Origin: Methylomonas sp. 11b
GTDB taxonomy: Bacteria > Pseudomonadota > Gammaproteobacteria > Methylococcales > Methylomonadaceae
Direction: 5' to 3'
NCBI RefSeq assembly: GCF_000515215.1
Contig: NZ_KI911557.1
Coordinates: forward strand, 248,001-312,000
DNA length: 64,000 nucleotides
The notes under the pieces: generated by a model
Databases searched by the model: none
The model's input: the letters and a program-made list of their open reading frames with translations, nothing else
What the model was told of the DNA's origin: nothing
Made by a program: the position numbers and the translations under genes
Shown here: positions 52,195 to 63,294 of the stretch, piece by piece
Layout of the letters: every line of letters starts with the position of its first letter
Position numbering within the stretch: the stretch's first letter is position 1

Positions 52195-54795
52195 TCAACG
52201 CTTGTTGACTTTTAGCAGCGCTTTCAAACGATATAAGGCGTCCAATGCTTGCCGAGGACTCAAATGATCGGGATCGAGTTCTTCCAGCAGCACGACAGCC
52301 GGATGGCATTCCTGGCTGGTAAATAAGTCGAATTGGTTGATTTCGCTATGATTTTGCAGCTCAATGTAGGCGGTGTTTTCCAATTGCGCCAGTTTATTTT
52401 TGGCGTTGGCAATCACGTTCTGCGGCACTCCGGCCAGCGCCGCCACTTGCAAACCGTAGCTTTGACTGGCCGGGCCGTCCTTGACGGCGTGTAAAAACAC
52501 GATCTTGTCGCCGTGCTCCATCGCATCCAAATGGATGTTGTGGATATTGCTTTGTTCTTCGGCCAGCGTAGTTAATTCGAAATAATGGGTCGCGAATAGC
52601 GTGAACGCCTGGGTATGGCGGGCCAGATAATCGGCGCAGGCCCAGGCCAACGATAAGCCGTCGAAAGTGCTGGTGCCGCGGCCGATCTCATCCATCAGGA
52701 TCAAGCTGTTGCTGGTGGCATTATGCAGAATATTCGCGGTTTCCGACATTTCCACCATAAAAGTCGAGCGGCCGCTGGCCAGATCGTCGGAGGCGCCGAT
52801 GCGGGTAAATATCTTGTCTATCGGTCCGCAACGTAGCGATTGCGCAGGCACGTAGCAGCCAATGTGCGCCAGCAGCACGATCAGCGCGGCCTGGCGCATA
52901 TAAGTCGATTTACCACCCATGTTCGGGCCGGTGATGACCAGCATCCGGCGCTCTGTCGAAAAATTCAGGTCGTTGGCGACGAAGGGAATGCTGGAGAGTG
53001 CTTCCACCACTAGATGTCGACCGGCAACGATGTCGATGCCGGGTTGTTGATCCAATACCGGTTGCGACAAGTTTAAGGTTTCGGCGCGTTCGGCGAAATT
53101 TACCAATACATCCAGTTCGGCCAACGAGTTGGCACAATGCTGTAGATCGAGTAGGGCATCGCCCAGCGTATCCAGCAATTGATCGTACAAAGCTTTCTCG
53201 AAGGACAGCGATTTTTCTCTGGCACTGAGCACTTTGTCCTCAAACGACTTCAGTTCCGGAGTGATGTAACGCTCGGCACCTTTCAGCGTTTGCTTGCGGG
53301 TGTAATGCATTGGCACCTTGTCGGCCTGAGCATTGGAAATCTCGATGTAATAGCCGTGCACCCGGTTGTAATTCACCTTGAGTGTAGCTATGCCGGTAGC
53401 GGCTCGCTCGCGCTGTTCCATGTCGATCAAGAATTGGTCGGCGTTCTGGCTGAGATTACGCAGCTCGTCCAGCTCCGGGTGGTAGCCGGGGGCAATCACG
53501 CCGCCGTCGCGGATCAAGACCGGCGGATTATCGATGATGGCGCGTTGCAGCAGGGCCAATAATTCCGGTTGTTCGCGCAGTTGCGAGCGTAGGTTTTCCA
53601 GATGCGGGTTATCGCTGTCGGCCAGCTGACTTTGTAAAGCCGGCAAGGTCGCCAATGTATGGCGCAGCACCAGTAGATCGCGTGGCCGCGCCGATTTCAA
53701 CGCAATGCGCGAGCTGATACGTTCTATATCGCCGACCTGACGCAGACTGCCTTGTAGGTCTTTATATAATTGATTCGCCAACAGACTGGCGACGCAGGCA
53801 TAGCGACCATTGACAACAGCATGATCCCGCAAGGGCCGGTGTATCCAGCGCCGCAGGCAACGGCTGCCCATCGCGGTGGCGGTCTTATCCAAGACGCCCA
53901 GCAAGGTGTATTGCATCTGGCCGCTGGGATGGCTGTCCAGCTCCAGATTGCGGCGGCTGGCGGCGTCCAGACTGATGCTGTCGTCGCAGTTCTCGACCCG
54001 AATGCCTTGAATATGGGGCAGGGCGCTTTGCTGAGTGTCGCGTACGTATTGCAGCAAACAACCCGCCGCGCAAATCGCCGCCGGCAAATGCTCGCAGCCA
54101 TAACCTTTCAAGTCGTGGCTATTGAACTGCTTCAAAATCAATAGCCGGCAACTATCAAGGTCAAAATGCCAGGGCGGACGCTTACATAAGCCGCGGCGTT
54201 CCTTGACGGCGGGCGGTAGTCTAATATCTTCGCTATACAGCAGTTCCGCCGGATTCAAGCGCTCGATTTCGCTAAGCAGCTGGGTTTCGTTGTCCAATTG
54301 TTGCAGCGTAAATTTACCGCTGCCTAAATCCAGACAGGCCAGTCCGAACAACTTGTCGAATACTGCCAGAGACACAAGCAGATTGTCCTTGCGATCCTCC
54401 AACAAGGCTTCGTCGGTGACAGTGCCTGGCGTGACGATGCGCACGACTTTGCGTTCCACCGGCCCTTTGGATTTGGCCGGGTCGCCGATTTGCTCGCATA
54501 TCGCAATCGATTCGCCTTGTTTCAGCAGGCGGGCGATGTAGTTTTCCGCCGCATGGTAAGGAATGCCGGCCATAGGGATTGGTTGTCCACCGGATTGGCC
54601 GCGAGCGGTTAGCGTAATATCCAATAACTGCGCGGCCTTTTTTGCATCATCGAAAAACAGCTCGTAGAAATCGCCCATTCTGTAAAACAGCAGCGTGTCA
54701 GGCTGGCCGGATTTGATGCGCATATATTGTTGCATCATCGGGGTGTGCTGTGTTTCGTTGCCTTGCCTGCTGTCTTGTTTTGTTTGGATATTCAT
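52195..54795 (-). CDS. mutS: DNA mismatch repair protein MutS
   Basis: An 866-residue MutS. The mismatch-reading Phe-x-Glu is in [11 protein letters not shown] near the N-terminus. Walker A is [16 protein letters not shown] and Walker B is [24 protein letters not shown] follows. The ATG at 54795 gives the normal [14 protein letters not shown] start; the longer frame adds 28 residues that run toward the integrase promoter and are unlikely to be translated. The integrase gene is divergent from it, so mutS lies at the edge of the accessory island. Confidence 0.97.
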
Positions 54796-54886
54796 TCGTA
54801 AGTTAATGAAATAACAGATAATAGTTCTATGTTGTGAGCCGGGTTCACTCCAGCTACACTTTTCAAAACTTCCCTGCACTTTGCTG

Positions 54887-54961
54887 TTTAGTATAGGTTT
54901 TAGTATAGGTTTTTTCGAGTTATACTCGTGTCATCGATCAACATAAAAAACCTATACTAAA
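54887..54961. promoter_or_regulatory. Symmetric 12-bp repeat set directly before the integrase gene
   Basis: TTTAGTATAGGT occurs twice in exact tandem (54887-54898 and 54899-54910) and once inverted as ACCTATACTAAA at 54950-54961, whose last base touches the integrase ATG at 54962. Between them is a short palindrome CGAGTTATACTCG (54916-54928). Such spacing suits binding sites of a dimeric regulator or arm-type sites of the recombinase. Confidence 0.75.
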
Positions 54962-56251
54962 ATGCAATTCGATGCCCGCACCGCTAAAGCTTTGCAGCCA
55001 GGACAGCATATGGCTTTTGACGATTACCCAGGACTGCGTTTGTCTGCCATGGCAAAAGTGAGAACTTGGTTTTATCGGTATAGAAGCACTGTTGATGGAC
55101 GCCTTAGGCAGGTGTCAATTGGTCATTGGCCATCTATGTCATTTCCCGTGGCTATTGTCGCTTGGGAAGCTTTGAAAAACCAGCGTGATTCTGGTAATGA
55201 TCCTGTATTAGAGGCAAAGCAAGCTAAATTAGAGGCAAAAGCTTTAATAATAAAACAAGAGGCGGCAAATTCTGAAAACGCTTATACAGTCCGAGTGCTG
55301 TGTGATGAATATTTAGCTGGACATGTTTGTCGCCACAGAGCCAAAAAAGGTTCTACTGAAATTACTAGGATGTTTAACACGATGCTGGGTGATATGGCGG
55401 ATTTACCATCCACTGCAATTACCCGCGCAATGGCTTTTGATTTGATTCAAAAGTACGCCGCAATATCGCCCGTGCAGGCCGGAAAATTACGATGTGAGTT
55501 AGGAGCAGCATGGGATTATGCAATGGATGCCGGCAGACTACCTGAAGCTGCAGTAAATTGGTGGCGCTTAATTTTACGTGGAAAAATTAGATCAAAAGGA
55601 AAGACCATAGAAGGTAAGAACATCGGCGTGGTTAAACGCGTACTCACTGAAGACGAAATCGGTGAATTGATAGCTTGGCTTCCAAATTTCGCACCGATAA
55701 TTACTGACGTTCTAATGTTATATCTTTGGACCGGAACTCGTGGCTCAGAAATTGTCGGCATGTCAGGAACTGAAATTAGTGAAGAGGGCGGTCAAGTTTG
55801 GTGGACGATACCGAAAATTAGAACGAAAAATGCTCGACATGAAACTGCTACAGATCAAAGGGTGCCCTTATTCGGTAGGGGTTTGGCAGTGGTGTTACGG
55901 CGGAAAAAATTATATGGAGACGGTTTTCTATTTCCATCCCGTCATAAAGTGGGGCACATCGAACAAAAATACGTCACTGAACAGGTGTTTTATAGACAGC
56001 CCTATAGTCAGATACGCCCTGAGCAGGTGAGGCCTCGATTAACGGTGACTCATTGGGCACCGCATGATTTGCGACGGACTTCACGCACCTTGCTTGCAAA
56101 ATTAGGATGTCCAGATTCCGTAGGTGAAACGATTCTCGGTCATATGTTACCCGGTGTGGTAGGAACTTATAATCGGCATCAATATGACGATGAAAAACGC
56201 CTATGGCTCTTTAATCTGTCAGAGCATCTTGAGTCATTGGCACATTTCTAG
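54962..56251 (+). CDS. Tyrosine recombinase/integrase with DUF4102-like arm domain
   Basis: A 429-residue integrase. The N-terminal arm-binding domain (about 1-90) has FDDYPGLRLSAMAKVRTWFY and RQVSIGHWPSM, as in P4-type integrases. A core-binding domain (about 110-215) follows. The catalytic set is complete: Arg260 (TGTRGSE), His368 and Arg371 (HDLRRTS), His394 (LGHM) and Tyr403 (GTYNRHQY). It should therefore be able to cut and join DNA. The codon use looks more A+T-rich than that of mutS beside it. The partner sites are unidentified, though the repeats before the gene and a tRNA-like piece at 56545 are candidates. Confidence 0.95.
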   Translation: MQFDARTAKALQPGQHMAFDDYPGLRLSAMAKVRTWFYRYRSTVDGRLRQVSIGHWPSMSFPVAIVAWEALKNQRDSGNDPVLEAKQAKLEAKALIIKQEAANSENAYTVRVLCDEYLAGHVCRHRAKKGSTEITRMFNTMLGDMADLPSTAITRAMAFDLIQKYAAISPVQAGKLRCELGAAWDYAMDAGRLPEAAVNWWRLILRGKIRSKGKTIEGKNIGVVKRVLTEDEIGELIAWLPNFAPIITDVLMLYLWTGTRGSEIVGMSGTEISEEGGQVWWTIPKIRTKNARHETATDQRVPLFGRGLAVVLRRKKLYGDGFLFPSRHKVGHIEQKYVTEQVFYRQPYSQIRPEQVRPRLTVTHWAPHDLRRTSRTLLAKLGCPDSVGETILGHMLPGVVGTYNRHQYDDEKRLWLFNLSEHLESLAHF

Positions 56252-56513
56252 ATTTAGGTTTGCCGTTGCGTCCGCCTATTGCCGTATTAGGGGGGGGTAA
56301 TAAATCGGAAACAGGACGCGACTCAGCCCATTCTTCAATTTCGCGTAGTAACCAGCAGGAACGGCGTGCAGATGCTTTACGAGGCTTAGGGAACTCATCG
56401 GCACGAATCAATGATTGGATGGTAGATTCAGAAAGCCCTGTGACTTCTGAAACCGCCTCAAGATCAATCATGATGGGTCTCAATACCGACTGACGTTTCT
56501 GGGAGTTACTCAT
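56211..56513 (-). CDS. AlpA / excisionase-like helix-turn-helix regulator
   Basis: A 100-residue protein with a MerR-type short HTH: DLEAVSEVTGLSESTIQSLI, then FPKPRKASARRSCWLLREIEEWAESRP, the typical AlpA layout. The C-terminal tail is basic and rich in Pro and Asn. AlpA proteins control the integrase or excision of P4-like elements; some act as recombination directionality factors. The 3' end overlaps the integrase 3' end by 41 bases on the opposite strand. The ATG at 56513 begins MSNSQKRQS; the frame extends upstream through a tRNA-like sequence. Confidence 0.8.
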   Translation of the reverse strand: MSNSQKRQSVLRPIMIDLEAVSEVTGLSESTIQSLIRADEFPKPRKASARRSCWLLREIEEWAESRPVSDLLPPPNTAIGGRNGKPKSRNVPMTQDALTD

Positions 56514-56635: not shown

Positions 56636-57103
56636 TCATAAATGTATTTTGCAGATGCTGCAGCGATCAGTGAGATCTTCACGGGCTTTTAACAAAACCC
56701 AAGATTGACATTGTGGACACTTCGAAAGTTGAACTCGTTTATCTTTGATGTCCTGTGCCACCACCCAAGCATCGGAAAACTCGAGTTGTCCCAAGGGATA
56801 TGATTTTTTATACGCATTAAAGGCAGTAATTAGCGTCTGGATTTGGCCTTCTTTCGATTTGGCCGTGGCAACCTGAAAACACACGGCGAAGATGGTTACA
56901 TCTTTATACTTACGGCGACTACCAGTCAAACCTCGGGTTGAAAACTTGATCGATCCACGGCTGGGCGATTGGCCATGTAATTGACGGTATGTCTGCCTCA
57001 GTAACTTTATCGGTACTCCCGTTGCTTGATGCACGATTTTGACTTTCGCATGGAGATTGAGCAGTTCAATTGCCAAGGTTTGCTGTTGATATTTCTTGAG
57101 CAT
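56636..57103 (-). CDS. FlhC-like transcriptional activator, second pair
   Basis: A 155-residue FlhC-family protein. AIELLNLHAKVKIVHQATGV, the LLRQTYRQLHGQSPSRGSI segment and FSTRG align by eye with the FlhC core (MELITLGARL, LYKELRGSPPPKG, FST). A C-x2-C-x15-C-x2-C zinc-binding set lies near the end (CPQC ... CSIC). FlhC works only with FlhD, forming the FlhD4C2 activator. Here its partner is the STAS-FlhD fusion gene ending 13 bases upstream. The GGGAGG site before its ATG is strong. It is shorter than E. coli FlhC (192 residues), mainly lacking the C-terminal tail. Target promoters are unknown. Confidence 0.75.
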   Translation of the reverse strand: MLKKYQQQTLAIELLNLHAKVKIVHQATGVPIKLLRQTYRQLHGQSPSRGSIKFSTRGLTGSRRKYKDVTIFAVCFQVATAKSKEGQIQTLITAFNAYKKSYPLGQLEFSDAWVVAQDIKDKRVQLSKCPQCQSWVLLKAREDLTDRCSICKIHL

Positions 57104-57115
57104 TAGCTGCCTCCC

Positions 57116-57709
57116 TTAATCAATAGTGCCGCTTAATCCAAGCATGGCTTCCACCATCGGAGGCGATTCTCTATTGATGTTTTGAATAAACTGACTCGAA
57201 AATCGAGGGGTAAAACATAGCCAGTTTGAGCGGGAAATTAAGTCAATGTCTTCTAAAGATAAACGACCAACTGCCAAGCGCATGGCCTCATCGGTAATCC
57301 CCAAGATTAATTCGGTCAGAACCGAGTTCTCCCGTGTGATTTCTCTGGCTTTGATGAGCCAAGTTTGATTCATGGCATAGATCTCTTCATCGCAACCCAG
57401 TTGATCTATCGTTGTCAGTTTGTCAAAGTAGGCCTCAAGATTTTTGAATGCTGACTGCATCATGTTGTCGACGTGCCCCGCCATATTGACTATTTTCAGT
57501 TTCGATTTCAGATAATCGGATCCGAATTCGGCGACCAGTGGCAAAAACAATTCCTGAAAGAACCCCTGCGTGATGGTTTTGACGTCCTTAAAATCAATCG
57601 TCAGCGATTGCTGATTGGCAAAGCATTCTCGGGCCAAGCGGGCTAGATTTTTGCCATGGATTGGCTGGGGTATTTGGGAATGGGTGGCTGTGACAACAAC
57701 GATATGCAT
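57116..57709 (-). CDS. STAS-like (DUF4325) - FlhD-like fusion protein
   Basis: A 197-residue protein with two parts. The first (about 1-105) has LTIDFKDVKTITQGFFQELF, then KLKIVNM, as in the STAS-like DUF4325 family. The second (about 108-175) has EIYAMNQTWLIKARE, LGITDEAMRLAVGRLSLEDI and SNWLCFTPRF, which match FlhD (IYDINLSYLLLAQ, LGINEEMATTLAALTLPQM, TNQLVCHFRF). A ribosome-binding AAGGAG lies before the ATG. Its FlhC-like partner gene starts 12 bases after it. STAS-like domains often take part in protein-protein or nucleotide control, so this could be a signal-controlled FlhD. I know of no named protein with this fusion. Confidence 0.75.
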   Translation of the reverse strand: MHIVVVTATHSQIPQPIHGKNLARLARECFANQQSLTIDFKDVKTITQGFFQELFLPLVAEFGSDYLKSKLKIVNMAGHVDNMMQSAFKNLEAYFDKLTTIDQLGCDEEIYAMNQTWLIKAREITRENSVLTELILGITDEAMRLAVGRLSLEDIDLISRSNWLCFTPRFSSQFIQNINRESPPMVEAMLGLSGTID

Positions 57710-57741
57710 GCGACTTCTCCTTAGTAGCTGATGGATCGTCT

Positions 57742-58359
57742 CTAACGAGCTCTTTGTTTGTTCAATGTGAGCATTTTTGATTTTGCGGAAACCCAGCGTC
57801 GCCGACCTGAGCGATCAGTCCACACCTCGCAGATAGGGCATTGACTAAATGCGGCTTCAGGGTGAATCATGCCTAGGTAACGGGCGCGGCAACGCCCGCA
57901 AAGAATGAAAACCAAATCACCCGCCGAGAGCAGGCTAATTAAATACCAAGCCCGGTTGATGTCTAACGGATAATGTTGGCTGGAGCGTGGTTGGATAAAT
58001 TGCCGATCGGCTAAAATTTTGGAAGCGACGTTGCTGTAGATCTCATAGGCCGTAACCAGTAAGGTTGCACTCAGGTTCGGAGTAGAAAGTCGGTGTCTGA
58101 TGTCTTCAATTATGCTTAAAAATAGCGAGGCATGAATGTTGTTGAACGCCGAGCGGATGGCCCATTGATGATCATGAGGCAGCATGCCTTGTTTGGGCGG
58201 TTGTCCTTGTACCGCTTTAGATAATTCGATGCTTTGCTTTCGGGTTAAATGGCAGAGTTGGCTGACAATCGGAGGACGTGCGCCAAGCTGGATTAGCCTT
58301 TCGGCCAATAGCAAGTCCGCGCCTATATTTGACCTGCTTTTAAAGGGCATTGGTTTCAT
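57742..58359 (-). CDS. FlhC-like transcriptional activator, first pair
   Basis: A 205-residue FlhC-family protein. It contains LLLAERLIQLGARPPIVSQL, then QSIELSKAVQGQPPKQGMLP, which follows the FlhC core (LITLGARL, LYKELRGSPPPKGMLP) closely. Near the end a C-x2-C-x16-C-x2-C set (CGRC ... CPIC) matches the FlhC zinc site. It overlaps the FlhD-like gene upstream by 20 bases, like a coupled flhDC operon. An ATG at 58350 is an alternative start. Together with that FlhD-like protein it should form an FlhDC-type complex, as do SetCD of SXT/R391 and AcaCD of IncA/C plasmids. Confidence 0.75.
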   Translation of the reverse strand: MKPMPFKSRSNIGADLLLAERLIQLGARPPIVSQLCHLTRKQSIELSKAVQGQPPKQGMLPHDHQWAIRSAFNNIHASLFLSIIEDIRHRLSTPNLSATLLVTAYEIYSNVASKILADRQFIQPRSSQHYPLDINRAWYLISLLSAGDLVFILCGRCRARYLGMIHPEAAFSQCPICEVWTDRSGRRRWVSAKSKMLTLNKQRAR

Positions 58360-58633
58360 CCGCAGTTCCAGTGATACACGGTTGGAGAAGATCCACATAG
58401 GCGACCATGGGCAAGTTGCTTGGAACATAAACCGGCAATAACTGAATCACTGCGCGACTGCTTTCGGCGTGTTCACGAAGTTGCTCCTGTGTCGTGCCGG
58501 CGAGATGGTCTATACCATTCCGATCTAATCCAAAGCGCCAGGCCGTTTCTTCAGGATTACTGCGTGCGCATTCCCTGGCTAGCATGAGATATTCGAAATT
58601 TAACCGGGCAAGATCTTCATCCAGTGTTGACAT
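58340..58633 (-). CDS. FlhD-like protein, first pair
   Basis: A 97-residue protein. LNFEYLMLARECARSNPEE, FGLDRNGIDHLAGTTQEQL and SRAVIQL follow FlhD (INLSYLLLAQRLI, LGINEEMATTLAALTLPQM, TNQLVCHF). Size fits FlhD (116-119 residues in enterobacteria). The frame is open 112 codons further upstream, but AGAGG just before 58633 and family length support this start. Its 3' end overlaps the FlhC-like gene. FlhD gives DNA-binding specificity to FlhC. Confidence 0.72.
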   Translation of the reverse strand: MSTLDEDLARLNFEYLMLARECARSNPEETAWRFGLDRNGIDHLAGTTQEQLREHAESSRAVIQLLPVYVPSNLPMVAYVDLLQPCITGTADETNAL

Positions 58634-59011
58634 AAACGCCTCTGAGTTGATTAACGACTGTTGTCGATATGCTAGGCAGGCAACGCGGAAATGTCCCGGT
58701 CGCAAAGTGACCTGATTTGGGTCACAAACCTCCGGAACCCCCGATAGATATGATTTGGCTTTGTTGAAAATAATTGTCCTATTGCGCTGGCGACGCTTTT
58801 TTCGGCAAATAACGGACGGCCAATTTGATAACGCCAGGCTAATTGCAGGGTCCAATGAATTGAATGATCCTGAAATTCTTCTAATCTCGTTCTGCTTACC
58901 AGGGACTTTGCCTACAAGAAGTAGAGCCTTAATTGGTGTTTGACCTGAATAATTGCATTCCAAAATCATTTTTATATTGCTTATCTTGAATTTGTTATGG
59001 AGGAAATTGTT
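58634..59011. promoter_or_regulatory. Divergent control region between flhD-like gene and membrane protein gene
   Basis: About 380 bases that must hold the promoters of the FlhDC-like operon (minus) and of the membrane protein transcript (plus). On the minus strand the frame is open without stop, but no protein family is visible in it. The AT-rich part at 58920-59000 is the best place for the rightward promoter. No clear operator was found. Confidence 0.4.
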
Positions 59012-59083
59012 ATGAATCGGCTATTCGCTAGCCAGACAACTACTGCTGGTTACCTGGTTTGGGGTGGTTTATGCGCGAGGTAA
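59012..59083 (+). CDS. Possible 23-codon leader peptide overlapping the next gene start
   Basis: ATGAATCGG... reads 23 codons to TAA at 59081-59083, with ATGGAGGAAATTGTT placing a perfect GGAGG before it. Its end overlaps the ATG at 59071 by 13 bases. The peptide has a short hydrophobic stretch (AGYLVWGGL). It may be a translation-coupling leader; or it may be chance. Length alone gives weak support, but the ribosome-binding site is the best in the region. Confidence 0.4.
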   Translation: MNRLFASQTTTAGYLVWGGLCAR

Positions 59084-60054
59084 TTCAATGCTTGATCGAT
59101 TGGTTGGATAGCGAGCCAAGCGATGAAAAAGGGCACCGCATATTGCGCGCGTTAGCCCAGGAATCGTTGAAGAAGTCAGAATTCGAAGAGTCGAAGCGCC
59201 GGTTCACGGCTGATGAAATCGTCGCCGCAGTCGGTGAATCTATAGGAATTTCCGATCCTAAAAAGTGGATCGACTGGCCGGGTTCATTGAAGAAATATTG
59301 CGAAACCCGAGAGCCGCAAATCTTAGAGTTTGCTCGTAAACGTGGGTTGTCTTGTTATCCAAAACCTGACCGTAAAAGCACAAAGGGCGGTCCGGGACAA
59401 CTCACGACGTTCTATATCAAGGCAGAACCGATACCGGAAATAACGGAAGAAGACCAAACGATTGACGGCGTCCTTGGCAGGAACAATGCAGCCGATTTGC
59501 AAGCCAGCTATCAAATGACTGAACTAGGTGAAGTCAAACCCAGTTGGATCGCGAGTCGGTTATTTCGGCGTGGACAAATCGAATTAAGACAATGGCATGT
59601 CTGGGTTATAGCGGGTTGGCTAGCAATCATAGCTGGGTTCTCGGTGTTAATTGCTTATGCTGGATGGCTATCGTTATCCGTACCCAGATCCGTGACAACG
59701 CAAGATTTGACATTACTGGTCAGTATTTTCGCGATTCCCTATGGTTCCTGGGTCACGATCATCAAGCCTTGGATATTATTGTTGGATGATCGAATCGTCG
59801 TAGCTCATGAACTGTTTACAAATTTTCATGAACAGTCTGCCCAGTTCGAACTGCTACGAGACGGGGATTTAAGAGTAATTCGGTTAGTTCGGTATTCGGC
59901 GGCATGTCCCATTTGTGGCGCCACTATTTATCTCGAAAAAGGCGAGCCGGATTACAGACGAAGATTGGTGGGGCGTTGTTATGAAAGCCCGAGAGAGCAT
60001 GTGTTTAGTTTTGATAGAATCACGCGTTGCGGGCGATTACTGGTTGATCGATAA
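59071..60054 (+). CDS. Unknown two-TM membrane protein with C-terminal zinc-ribbon-like motif
   Basis: A 327-residue protein that I do not recognise. The N-terminal 140 residues are soluble, charged and helical, with IDWPGSLKKYCE and RKSTKGGPGQ. Two hydrophobic helices lie at about 175-195 and 205-225. The cytoplasmic C-terminal part has ACPICGATIYL, then GRCYESPREHVF and RCGRLL, which looks like a zinc ribbon. The ATG at 59071 was chosen over a TTG four codons earlier. It lies at the right end of the island and is divergent from the FlhDC-like operon; it could be a target or a sensor for it. No relation to conjugation proteins is visible. Confidence 0.7.
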   Translation: MREVIQCLIDWLDSEPSDEKGHRILRALAQESLKKSEFEESKRRFTADEIVAAVGESIGISDPKKWIDWPGSLKKYCETREPQILEFARKRGLSCYPKPDRKSTKGGPGQLTTFYIKAEPIPEITEEDQTIDGVLGRNNAADLQASYQMTELGEVKPSWIASRLFRRGQIELRQWHVWVIAGWLAIIAGFSVLIAYAGWLSLSVPRSVTTQDLTLLVSIFAIPYGSWVTIIKPWILLLDDRIVVAHELFTNFHEQSAQFELLRDGDLRVIRLVRYSAACPICGATIYLEKGEPDYRRRLVGRCYESPREHVFSFDRITRCGRLLVDR

Positions 60055-60280: not shown

Positions 60281-60352
60281 TCTGTCAAATCGGTTTTTTT
60301 TGGTTTGTCTTTCCCTCTGTTATTCCGTCCACCTTATTCGGAACAGACAACC

Positions 60353-60529
60353 ATGAAAACACTCGCGGTATCTACCACCCTTTCTTCCTCAAAAATCCTG
60401 CCCGGCCTGAGTGCTATTGTTTTGGGCCTGACCGTCGTTTTAGGTTTGGGTTTCTTGCAGGACGCCAACAACTACCTGCATAACGCCGCCCACGACGGAC
60501 GCCATAGCGCTGCGTTTCCCTGCCATTAA
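60353..60529 (+). CDS. cbtB: Cobalt transporter subunit CbtB
   Basis: A 58-residue protein with one membrane helix (about 15-35). The C-terminus has the metal-binding histidines HNAAHDGRHSAAFPCH expected for CbtB. It works with CbtA, encoded 1 base downstream. The start at 60353 avoids 16 upstream codons that lie in the riboswitch region. Confidence 0.92.
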   Translation: MKTLAVSTTLSSSKILPGLSAIVLGLTVVLGLGFLQDANNYLHNAAHDGRHSAAFPCH

Positions 60530-60530
60530 C

Positions 60531-61178
60531 ATGGCGGATTTTCGTAGGCTGATCGCCATCTCGCTACTGGCGGGACTATTGGGCGGCTTGTTACTCAGCG
60601 TGCTACAACACTATCAAACCTTGCCCTTGATTTTGGCCGCCGAACAATTCGAAACGCCATCGGCTGAGCATGTGCATGACTGGCAACCGACGGACGGCTG
60701 GCAACGCAATGGCTTTACTTTGCTGTTCAATGGCCTGACCGGCTTCGGCTTTGCCTTGTTTATCAGTGTCGCCCTGTACTGGCGGGATCAACACGGTTAC
60801 CTGTACGGACTCGGCTGGGGTTTGGCCGGTTATTTGGTATTTTTTGTCGCGCCATCATTGGGCTTGCCGCCGGAGTTGCCGGGTACTGACAGCGCCGAAT
60901 TACATAGTCGCCAAGCGTGGTGGCTTTTTACGGCCGCCGCTACCGCGATTGGCTTGTTTGGTCTGTTTTTGACCAAACAGCGCTGGCTGCAAATCGGCGG
61001 CGCTGGCTTACTGGCCTTACCGCATCTGATCGGCGCACCGCATCCGGAGGTTGCTCAGGCTTTAGCGCCCGAAGCCTTACAACAGCATTTTGTGGTGTTG
61101 ACATCCATCAACAACGCTATTTTCTGGCTGACCTTAGGCGCAATATCGGGCCGATTGTTGCGTAAAGTAACGTTTTAG
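60531..61178 (+). CDS. cbtA: Cobalt transporter subunit CbtA
   Basis: A 215-residue membrane protein with about five helices. The N-terminal MADFRRLIAISLLAGLLGG, FNGLTGFGFALFISVALYWR, and APSLGLPPELPGTDSAELHSRQAWW follow the CbtA pattern. It imports cobalt for the corrin ring. It is 1 base after cbtB and ends next to the cobB start. Confidence 0.93.
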   Translation: MADFRRLIAISLLAGLLGGLLLSVLQHYQTLPLILAAEQFETPSAEHVHDWQPTDGWQRNGFTLLFNGLTGFGFALFISVALYWRDQHGYLYGLGWGLAGYLVFFVAPSLGLPPELPGTDSAELHSRQAWWLFTAAATAIGLFGLFLTKQRWLQIGGAGLLALPHLIGAPHPEVAQALAPEALQQHFVVLTSINNAIFWLTLGAISGRLLRKVTF

Positions 61179-61180
61179 TG

Positions 61181-62479
61181 ATGAATGCTACCGCAACACG
61201 CCATTGCCCGGCGATATTGATCAGCGCCCCTGCCTCCGGGCAAGGCAAAACCACCATAACTGCAGCTTTGGCCTATTACCATCGCCAGCAAAACCGAAAG
61301 GTACGCCTGTTCAAAACCGGCCCGGATTTTATCGATCCGCAAATCTTGAGCTTTGCTTGCGGACAACCGGTTTATCAGCTGGATTTATGGATGATGGGCG
61401 AAGCGCATTGCCGTGAGATGCTTTATAACGCCGCCGCCGACGCTGACGTTATCTTGATTGAAGGTGCCATGGGCTTGTTCGACGGCGATAGCAGCAGCGC
61501 CGATTTGGCACAAACACTAGACGTGCCTGTGGCCGTTGTCATCGATGCGGGCGGCATGGCACAAACTTTTGCCGCAGTAGCTTATGGCTTAGCCCATTAC
61601 CGTGCCAACTTACCGTTTGCCGGGGTCATCGCCAACAAAGTCGGCAGTCCTAGTCATGCCAAACTGCTAGAAGAAGCGTTGCCGAATAACATGCCTTTGC
61701 TGGTGGCGATGGCGAAAGACGACGCGGTCGGCTTACCTTCGCGACATCTGGGTTTGTTGCAGGCCGACGAAATCGGCGATCTCGATCTTCGCCTGGCGCG
61801 AGCCGCCGAATTGCTCGGCAGTCTTGCGCCGTGCCGATTGCCGGAGCCGGTCACCTTCGCGCCGATTACTACCGATCCGCCGCCGAAATTGCTGACTGGT
61901 AAGCGTATCGCGGTAGCTCGCGATGCCGCATTTTCGTTTATCTATCAAGCAAATCTGGATTGTTTGCAAGCCATGGGCGCTGAACTGACGTTTTTCTCGC
62001 CGCTTGCAGACCACGTATTACCCGAGGCAGACAGTGTTTATTTGCCCGGCGGTTACCCGGAACTACATCTCCAAACATTGGCCGACAATGTCGCCATGAA
62101 ACAAGCCTTGCAGCAACATCATCAAGCCAGTAAACCGATTTACGCCGAATGCGGCGGTTTTTTATATTTGCTGGAACGTTTGGCCGATAAACACGGCAAT
62201 GCGGCAGCGATGGCAGGATTACTACCCGGTAGCGTGCAGATGCAAAAACGGCTGGTCAATCTTGGCATGCACAGCGTGCAGTTGGAACAAGGTGAAATTC
62301 GCGGGCATAGCTTTCATCACTCGCAACTGGAAACCACACTGCAACCGTTCACCGAATCGAAGCCGCAACGCAATCGTAGTCGCAGCGAAAACTTTTACCG
62401 GGTGGGTTCGCTGCAAGGGTCTTATCTGCATAACTATTTCCCATTCAATCCGCAGGTTGCGGCTGGATTTTTTCTATGA
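61181..62479 (+). CDS. cobB/cbiA: Cobyrinate a,c-diamide synthase
   Basis: A 432-residue amidotransferase. The ATP motif is SAPASGQGKTTITAALA near the N-terminus; the glutaminase part has the nucleophile Cys in KPIYAECGGFLYLLE and HSFHHS. It turns cobyrinate into its a,c-diamide with glutamine and ATP. A GTG one codon earlier is an alternative start. Its end overlaps cobM by four bases (ATGA). Confidence 0.95.
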   Translation: MNATATRHCPAILISAPASGQGKTTITAALAYYHRQQNRKVRLFKTGPDFIDPQILSFACGQPVYQLDLWMMGEAHCREMLYNAAADADVILIEGAMGLFDGDSSSADLAQTLDVPVAVVIDAGGMAQTFAAVAYGLAHYRANLPFAGVIANKVGSPSHAKLLEEALPNNMPLLVAMAKDDAVGLPSRHLGLLQADEIGDLDLRLARAAELLGSLAPCRLPEPVTFAPITTDPPPKLLTGKRIAVARDAAFSFIYQANLDCLQAMGAELTFFSPLADHVLPEADSVYLPGGYPELHLQTLADNVAMKQALQQHHQASKPIYAECGGFLYLLERLADKHGNAAAMAGLLPGSVQMQKRLVNLGMHSVQLEQGEIRGHSFHHSQLETTLQPFTESKPQRNRSRSENFYRVGSLQGSYLHNYFPFNPQVAAGFFL

Positions 62480-63294
62480 GCGCTCACTCTATTCAGCCTA
62501 ATCAGCAGAAGGTCTGGTTTGTCGGCGCAGGTCCGGGTGACCCCGATCTAATCACCGTCAAAGGCCGCGACTTAATCGCCAAGGCTGACGCCATTTTGTT
62601 CGCCGGTTCGCTGGTACAAGCCGCCGCGACGCAATGGGCACCAAGCGCTTGCTTGATCAAAGATTCCAAAGACATGACTTTGGAGCAGATTACCAACTGG
62701 CTGACCGAACAAGCCGGTCCGGGCAAAACCGTCATTCGCCTGCAAACCGGCGACCCTGGCTTGTACGGTGCATTGATTGAAATGGTGCAACCACTGGATG
62801 CGGCCAACATTGCCGTCGAAGTAGTGCCGGGCGTCTCGTCGGCGTTTGCCGCGATGGCTTGTGCAGTCGAAAGCCTGACCTTGCCCGAAGTCACGCAGAC
62901 CGTGATTTTAACCCGTGTTGAAGGCCGCACACCGATGCCGGACGGTGAATCATTGCAAGAATTGGCCAGCCATCACACCACGCTGTGCCTGTTTTTATCG
63001 ATCACCTTGCTGCCCACGATCGAACGCGAGTTAAAAGACGCAGGTTGGTCGGATGATGCACCGGCATTGGTGGTCCACAAAGCCAGCTGGCCGGGTGAAC
63101 AACAGATTATTCGCGGCACCCTGGCTGATATTCGCGAACGCTGCCGGGCCGCCAAAATCAACAGTCAGGCCATGATCGTCATCAGCCCCACCTTGGGCGC
63201 GCGGCACTGGCCATCGTTAAAAAAATCCAAACTTTATGATGCCGGTTTTACCCATCGTTTTCGCCGCGCCGAGCGGCCTCAATCTAAGGAATAA
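62476..63294 (+). CDS. cobM/cbiF: Precorrin-4 / cobalt-precorrin-4 C11-methyltransferase
   Basis: A 272-residue SAM-dependent methyltransferase. VWFVGAGPGDPDLITVKG is the family start; ILFAGSLV, LQTGDPGLYGA and EVVPGVSSAFAAMA follow, then TRVEGRTPMPDGE. It methylates C11 of the ring. With CbiX as the next gene, the pathway is most likely the anaerobic (early cobalt insertion) one, so CbiF is the better name. Confidence 0.95.
   Translation: MSAHSIQPNQQKVWFVGAGPGDPDLITVKGRDLIAKADAILFAGSLVQAAATQWAPSACLIKDSKDMTLEQITNWLTEQAGPGKTVIRLQTGDPGLYGALIEMVQPLDAANIAVEVVPGVSSAFAAMACAVESLTLPEVTQTVILTRVEGRTPMPDGESLQELASHHTTLCLFLSITLLPTIERELKDAGWSDDAPALVVHKASWPGEQQIIRGTLADIRERCRAAKINSQAMIVISPTLGARHWPSLKKSKLYDAGFTHRFRRAERPQSKE

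Follow-up and report, generated by a model that had tools for sequence, protein, structure and literature searches.

Two predicted FlhD/FlhC-type regulator pairs, one of them carrying a STAS-like domain, at the integrase end of an SXT/IncA-C-like element of Methylomonas sp. 11b

We analysed a stretch of 64,000 nucleotides from Methylomonas sp. 11b (contig NZ_KI911557.1, positions 248,001 to 312,000; G000:C1:248001-312000 in our numbering), referred to below as the window. Four genes follow each other on its minus strand beside the tyrosine integrase of a predicted integrative conjugative element (ICE). A preliminary description of the window, made from its letters, had read them as FlhD-like, FlhC-like, STAS-FlhD-like and FlhC-like genes and this was borne out by Pfam, by the solved structure 2avu_E and by predicted folds. 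In the order of reading, with lengths in amino acids (aa), the members of this quartet are:

58340..58633, minus strand: FlhD1, FlhD-like subunit, 97 aa (Pfam on a longer open reading frame (ORF), Foldseek)
57742..58359, minus strand: FlhC1, FlhC-like subunit, about 205 aa (Pfam, 2avu_E, four cysteines, tree)
57116..57709, minus strand: STAS-FlhD, a DUF4325/STAS-like N-terminal part (about residues 1-92) followed by an FlhD C-terminal part (about residues 105-167)
56636..57103, minus strand: FlhC2, FlhC-like subunit, 155 aa (Pfam, four cysteines, own clade in the tree)

FlhD1 and FlhC1 overlap by 20 bases, as had been claimed, when their starts are taken at 58633 and 58359, respectively. FlhC2 (56636-57103) matched the Pfam family FlhC at 2.7e-16 and FlhC1 at 1.2e-22, the latter run on 57742-58428, since its longest ORF starts at 58428. 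Furthermore, FlhC1 matched the solved FlhC structures of Escherichia coli (2avu_E, 6.6e-14) and Cupriavidus necator (8j56_C, 5.7e-10), and both FlhC-like proteins keep the set of four cysteines (CxxC...CxxC) noticed earlier. Regarding the D proteins, for which a structural check had been proposed, their predicted single-chain folds resemble FlhD in Foldseek searches; for FlhD1, of which we collected 91 homologues, all of the top ten matches were FlhD. The N-terminal domain of STAS-FlhD matched the STAS-like family DUF4325 at 6.5e-11 and has a STAS-like predicted fold. Judged from sequences and folds, the four genes are two genuine FlhD/FlhC-type regulator pairs, one of them STAS-fused. A phosphoserine switch in STAS-FlhD was found to be without clear support: at the candidate site, assigned by eye after that of SpoIIAA, the alignment shows an ITQGFF-like stretch with mostly T or S but also D, A and P, and the expected serine position is not conserved.

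The island in the window is the integrase end of an element of ~169 kb, here called E2 (C1:302.9-472.2 kb, in contig coordinates). The preliminary description had seen no conjugation or mobilisation genes around the quartet, which was wrong, as an MPF_F/TraI_2 backbone lies past the right edge of the window. The conjugation genes begin beyond that edge and therefore their absence was an effect of where the window ends; on reading the flanks, we discarded the idea of a ~5-kb island that lacks transfer genes. E2 encodes TraE, TraK, TrbI/TraB, TraV, a DsbC-like protein, TraC, an S26 peptidase, TrbC/TraW, TraU and TraN (TraE and TraC having been identified on the copies of a sister element, E1, and then located in E2), and further a TraI_2 relaxase, TraD, DUF4400, a TrfA-like protein, TraF, TraH and TraG_N. 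RecT, a YqaJ exonuclease, a MoxR/CbbQ-type ATPase, DUF3150, CobT/VWA, DUF4942 and a HATPase_c_3 protein of 552 aa are also present. The quartet is encoded, then, on a conjugative element of the MOBH/MPF_F type (TraI_2, which we take as the marker of MOBH, TraD and F-type genes, with a split traC). The two pieces of traC in E2 cover residues 1-158 (400.7-401.2 kb) and 138-803 (360.9-362.9 kb). The insert between them (C1:362900-400740, about 37.8 kb) encodes a Mu portal protein and the C-terminal domain of a Mu transposase, while its tail-sheath matches are weak and under the Pfam cut-off. By its gene content it is a Mu-like prophage. In the sister element E3 traC is intact, in one piece; the E1 copy, of 804 aa, was the query.

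E1 (about C1:70-200 kb), E2 and E3 (about C1:1828-1979 kb) are colinear and have about 40 genes in common order; the spans of E1 and E3 are approximate, as their ends were not mapped. In all three, the quartet lies near one end and a third FlhD-FlhC pair elsewhere, beside traG and a transglycosylase gene. In E2 this third pair (FlhD3 and FlhC3) lies outside the window, near the end opposite to the quartet, where an FlhD gene (3.5e-11) overlaps an FlhC gene (2.6e-4, below the cut-off) next to an SLT transglycosylase gene (slt) and after TraF-TraH-TraG. The order SLT-FlhD-FlhC was found in all 23 third-pair loci, 20 of which had been chosen by their FlhD match, so that only SLT and FlhC are independent of the selection; TraG was in the same locus in 20 of the 23 (not in L115, L123 and L127). 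From this gene context, the third pair is predicted to hold the SetCD/AcaCD position on the element. A further FlhD was located 81-252 kb upstream on the same strand for 17 of the 47 places with a strong STAS-FlhD match (one fragment of 52 aa, G028:C128, was dropped), with a query that misses diverged copies such as that of E1 and with many of the other places on short contigs. A doubled master activator had been suggested for the island. That the genes are FlhDC relatives and form more than one pair stands, but the pairs are three, the third of them outside the window.

A tree was built from 43 hand-chosen FlhC proteins, SetC of SXT not included. FlhC1, FlhC2 and FlhC3 each formed a single group, with support of 95/93, 100/98 and 98/95 respectively; the FlhC1 group joined E. 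coli FlhC (97/90), and AcaC, AqaC, AsaC and Rts1 SetC made up a fourth group (95/87). The tree has long branches, and according to a warning of the tool some of its joins, including that with E. coli FlhC, may be false. On this tree the three FlhC proteins are placed in three separate lineages. The two pairs of the quartet are adjacent, as the earlier reading of a tandem pair had it, but they are not a duplicated pair, and a recent tandem duplication of one D-C pair is ruled out by the tree. Regarding selection, we compared the window with up to seven loci and used only unsaturated synonymous rates (Ks). The ratio of non-synonymous to synonymous rates (Ka/Ks) was 0.17-0.23 for FlhD1, 0.13-0.27 for FlhC1, 0.06-0.16 for STAS-FlhD and, in three loci, 0.05-0.21 for FlhC2; by this measure the quartet is under purifying selection.

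We then have 38 loci with wide flanks, namely the window and 37 fetched out of a larger number of STAS-FlhD places. The quartet is complete in 34 of them and keeps the same gene order in the maps. In L061 and L063 STAS-FlhD and FlhC2 stand without FlhD1 and FlhC1, and L062 has an incomplete quartet at a contig end. A search for the four-gene set next to integrases had been proposed. When the three genes that follow the quartet most closely are considered, 17 of the 38 loci have a gene of the integrase cluster there. Among the same three genes, a co-directional gene of the AlpA or HTH_17 clusters (15 and 41) occurs in 11 loci, and 6 more have in that place a gene of 74-76 aa without Pfam match, Pfam having been run on one representative of each cluster. 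In other loci the quartet borders, for example, an aspartokinase-like gene; therefore, it looks like an end module that occurs at several sites. In L066 and L067 a further divergent FlhD/FlhC-like pair seems to stand directly beside the quartet.

A scan of genome contigs gave 28 loci, of which 25 are titled as Methylococcales taxa; the rest are L130, titled only Gammaproteobacteria (92% match), and L156 and L157, which are weak matches to the FlhD part. Three STAS-FlhD loci belong to Methylomonas sp. LW13. Among 101 genomes, 22 have a strong STAS-FlhD match, 27 have TraU and 21 have both. Thus TraU is present in 21 of the 22 genomes with STAS-FlhD vs 6 of the 79 others (Fisher 2.3e-15), and within genus the counts were 18, 0, 3 and 16 (p 7.5e-8), both p-values being only indicative because species share ancestry. 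Weak FlhD-only matches, the sole ones in G004, G012, G029 and G081, were not counted as STAS-FlhD. Finally, a Methylobacter plasmid carries the full quartet, with a block of tra genes on one side of it and DUF4400-traD-mobH on the other; the third pair was not found on it, FlhC3 being near the detection limit even in the genome of the window.

The other features of the integrase end are the following:

52195..54879, minus strand: mutS, host gene, at whose 5' end E2 sits
54890..54908, no strand: 19-bp terminal direct repeat AGTATAGGTTTTAGTATAG, second copy at C1:472206-472224
54962..56251, plus strand: tyrosine integrase of E2 (Pfam Phage_integrase 3.8e-10, Arm-DNA-bind_3 4.7e-8)
56211..56513, minus strand (ORF open to 56576): AlpA/HTH_17-type gene, candidate excisionase (Pfam Phage_AlpA 1.2e-9, PHROG excisionase families)
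58707..58725, no strand: dyad GTGACC-N7-GGTCAC, 73 nt upstream of the ATG of FlhD1, candidate operator of the quartet
59059..60054, plus strand: predicted membrane protein of 331 aa with C-terminal cysteine pairs (features by eye)
60305..63294, plus strand: start of a cobalamin/cobalt cluster with CbtB, CbtA, CobB and a tetrapyrrole methylase (Pfam)

The island does bear an integrase, as had been described, and the AlpA/HTH_17 gene lies directly downstream of the quartet in the same direction; its Ka/Ks was 1.54 (on a Ks of 0.01) and 0.35. The repeat that bounds E2 has exactly two perfect copies in the genome and a third place with 2 mismatches. No clean attB came out of the genomes that lack the AGTATAGG word upstream of mutS. 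At the far end of E2 (C1:472206-472560) we observed displaced copies of the mutS start region with an integrase-like remnant, and such copies are also seen at G005:C1:2859400-2859900. ICEs of this type may alter mutS expression. Of the 38 loci, 7 have mutS as a conserved neighbour, and 7 have CbtA near the quartet. The gene for the 331-aa protein is divergent from the quartet and occupies the same place in 23 of the 38; family searches, Pfam and PHROG among them, gave no convincing family for the protein. The cobalamin/cobalt genes are apparent cargo, and so are AcrB-type pump genes seen on E1 and E3, to which a protein of 1,039 aa of E2 is ~25% identical.

Between hosts, the Ks of the integrase is small (0.03 with L044 and 0.07 with L042) while that of mutS is large between the same hosts (0.62 and 1.46); this argues for horizontal spread. 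In L044 the Ks was 0.18 for FlhD1, 0.43 for FlhC1, 0.80 for STAS-FlhD, 0.51 for the 331-aa gene and 0.06 for FlhC2. Most of the other genes of the element differ more than the integrase; therefore, the elements are mosaic.

Regarding the control region, the dyad was seen in an alignment of 14 loci. It is exact in 25 of the 34 loci with FlhD1, and several of the other nine have related forms by eye. The only two perfect copies in the genome stand before the quartets of E2 and E3, and the dyad may be an operator for the quartet's own control. CCC-N4-GGG was rejected as an activator site because it is too close to the start codons for a -35 position. It was counted 37 times in 16.6 kb of upstream regions vs 125 in 446 kb of elements, and as the word had been found in these same regions, its p-value is post hoc. 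Leaders of the form ACCC-N2to5-GGG...CCC-N2to5-GGG stand in the 60 nt ahead of numerous backbone ORFs of E1, E2 and E3, and also precede 4 ORFs of the IncA plasmid pRA1 (leader loci L069, L070, L077, L091, L029 and, for pRA1, L104). Six scanned pieces of L069-L076 (all except L072 and L076) had no Rfam match. These sequences look like an unnamed RNA leader, either one long hairpin or two small ones. As for a repressor, SetR of SXT is an HTH_3+S24 protein according to the pertinent part of PMC4542580. HTH_3 and S24 searches found no such protein on E2 or E3, which differ in this from SXT; one HTH_3 protein (C1:387689) lies inside the Mu-like insertion of E2, and one S24 match lies in E1 (C1:178704).

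The third pair resembles SetCD (SXT/R391 ICEs), AcaCD (IncA/C plasmids), AqaCD, AsaCD and SetC/SetD of Rts1. These, too, are pairs of the FlhD-FlhC type, and the conjugative elements that encode them have transfer genes of the F type. In pRA1, pAQU1, pAsa4 and Rts1, slt lies near TraF-TraH-TraG together with an FlhC-family gene and a neighbouring gene that takes the D position, as in the third pair of Methylomonas. Rts1 is also like E2 in its annotated RecT, exonuclease, MoxR, DUF3150, VWA and F-type tra genes. The parts of these four plasmids that we examined have one pair, whereas the Methylomonas elements have three; two of these make up a block of their own at the integrase/attachment end, and one contains the STAS-FlhD fusion. 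Section 24 of PMC4542580 names the slt/TraF-TraH-TraG-type context for SetCD, AcaCD, SgaCD, AqaCD and AsaCD. In passages of PMC4542580 and PMC4207636, FlhDC-family factors of the SetCD and AcaCD types activate element promoters, and in the latter AcaCD triggers the excision of genomic islands. Replication of SGI1 requires two FlhDC-family activators (SgaCD/FlhDC of SGI1 with AcaCD), as stated in part of PMC7826253. This is a precedent for two such activators needed jointly by one element; however, there the pairs come from two elements, the island and a helper plasmid, and in Methylomonas three pairs are on one. Flagellar FlhDC (E. coli 2AVU, C. necator 8J56) shares the fold and the cysteine set, and FlhC1 joins E. 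coli FlhC, but all nine FlhC matches of this genome, two of them below the family cut-off, lie on the ICE-like elements E1, E2 and E3, three on each. Finally, the STAS-like fold is shared with DUF4325/STAS proteins and with anti-anti-sigma domains of the RsbV/SpoIIAA type, from which STAS-FlhD differs by its fusion to FlhD and by the phosphoserine position discussed above.

Taking all this together, we think that the quartet probably consists of two pairs, FlhD1 with FlhC1 and STAS-FlhD with FlhC2, and is the end module of a large SXT/IncA-C-like ICE of Methylomonas-type methanotrophs, where it would activate excision and transfer together with the third pair. The four genes would be transcribed as one operon and would yield these two D-C pairs; STAS-FlhD and FlhC2 survive separately, and this points to each pair being a functional unit. 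The quartet and the SetCD-type pair beside traG and slt would then activate the excision and transfer genes. Its most direct target may be the downstream AlpA/xis-like gene, reached by read-through or by activation and leading to excision, and it would also govern early functions jointly with the SetCD-type pair. The STAS domain would be an added input or an assembly module.

Several points weigh against this interpretation. In the quartet itself, the Pfam FlhD score of FlhD1, obtained from the longer ORF 58340-58969, is 2.9e-5 and 24.7 bits vs a cut-off of 27, the FlhD match of STAS-FlhD is weak (0.024, under the cut-off), and the Foldseek E-values are 7e-3 or weaker. All three FlhC proteins fall outside the AcaC/SetC clade, and the traG and slt position is held by the third pair and not by the quartet at the opposite end. 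Furthermore, the third pair is present in G012 and G081 without a strong STAS-FlhD match; therefore, the quartet is not required in every case. An insertion interrupts FlhC2 in L034, one of the 34 complete loci, and L057 has only STAS-FlhD and FlhC2 with insertion sequence (IS) genes adjoining, probably because of an insertion. PLSDB types the Methylobacter plasmid as non-mobilizable. A home-made expectation maximisation (EM) search of the upstream regions of E2 and E3 found no convincing activator motif: for E2 no score left the range of its three shuffles, and for E3 the scores were slightly over all three (65.3 vs 57.0-61.2 and 86.9 vs 76.1-83.0). Finally, as its traC is split by the Mu-like prophage, E2 probably cannot transfer unaided.

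Other explanations were considered. The tight packing of the four genes on one strand, and their occurrence together in the same map order in 34 of the 38 loci, would also fit one mixed complex, in which FlhD1, STAS-FlhD, FlhC1 and FlhC2 enter a single FlhD4C2-like hetero-oligomer with two kinds of each subunit. We regard this as unlikely, given that STAS-FlhD and FlhC2 are found alone in L061 and L063 and that FlhC1 and FlhC2 are deeply separate lineages. It is less likely still that what the quartet regulates is not transfer but a function of the cargo or of the host, such as the 331-aa membrane protein or motility. The divergent 331-aa gene adjoins it in 23 of the 38 loci and FlhC1 groups with the flagellar FlhC of E. 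coli; nevertheless, E1 and others keep the quartet without the 331-aa gene, the quartet is tied to TraU across genomes and lies beside traD-mobH on the plasmid, and by eye no flagellar gene was noticed beside it among the window ORFs, no family scan for flagellar genes having been run.

It is highly improbable that the quartet is the decaying leftover of earlier regulators, now redundant with the SetCD-type third pair. The third pair on the same elements, its presence without the quartet in G012 and G081, the insertions that hit it in L034 and probably L057, and the split traC of E2 would agree with this. Against these stand the Ka/Ks of 0.05-0.27, the 34 of 38 loci with all four genes, the dyad exact in 25 of 34, and the Methylobacter plasmid, where the quartet is found and the third pair is not.

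Returning to the two pairs as activators of excision and transfer, a more specific and rather doubtful version is that three FlhDC-family complexes act in series, the STAS-equipped and flagellar-like pairs sensing the state of the host and committing the element to excision, and the SetCD-type pair then turning on transfer. If E2 is circularised, the two regulatory regions would be within about 30 kb. Should this be true, STAS-FlhD would be, as far as our searches show, the first FlhD to contain a signalling domain of its own, and the HATPase_c_3 protein may be its partner. The set of three pairs with a STAS fusion looks new: among the matches listed in open-access literature, none dealt, by its title or the opening of its abstract, with STAS-FlhD fusions, with three FlhDC pairs per element or with SXT-like ICEs in methanotrophs.

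FlhDC-type master activators set when SXT/R391 and IncA/C elements move. The methanotroph elements suggest that this mobility switch can be three-part and include a STAS module, and the signal that such activators read becomes testable in elements in which no SetR-type repressor was detected. Furthermore, the SXT/IncA-C-like backbone reaches the Methylococcales, with cobalamin and AcrB-type pump genes as its apparent cargo.

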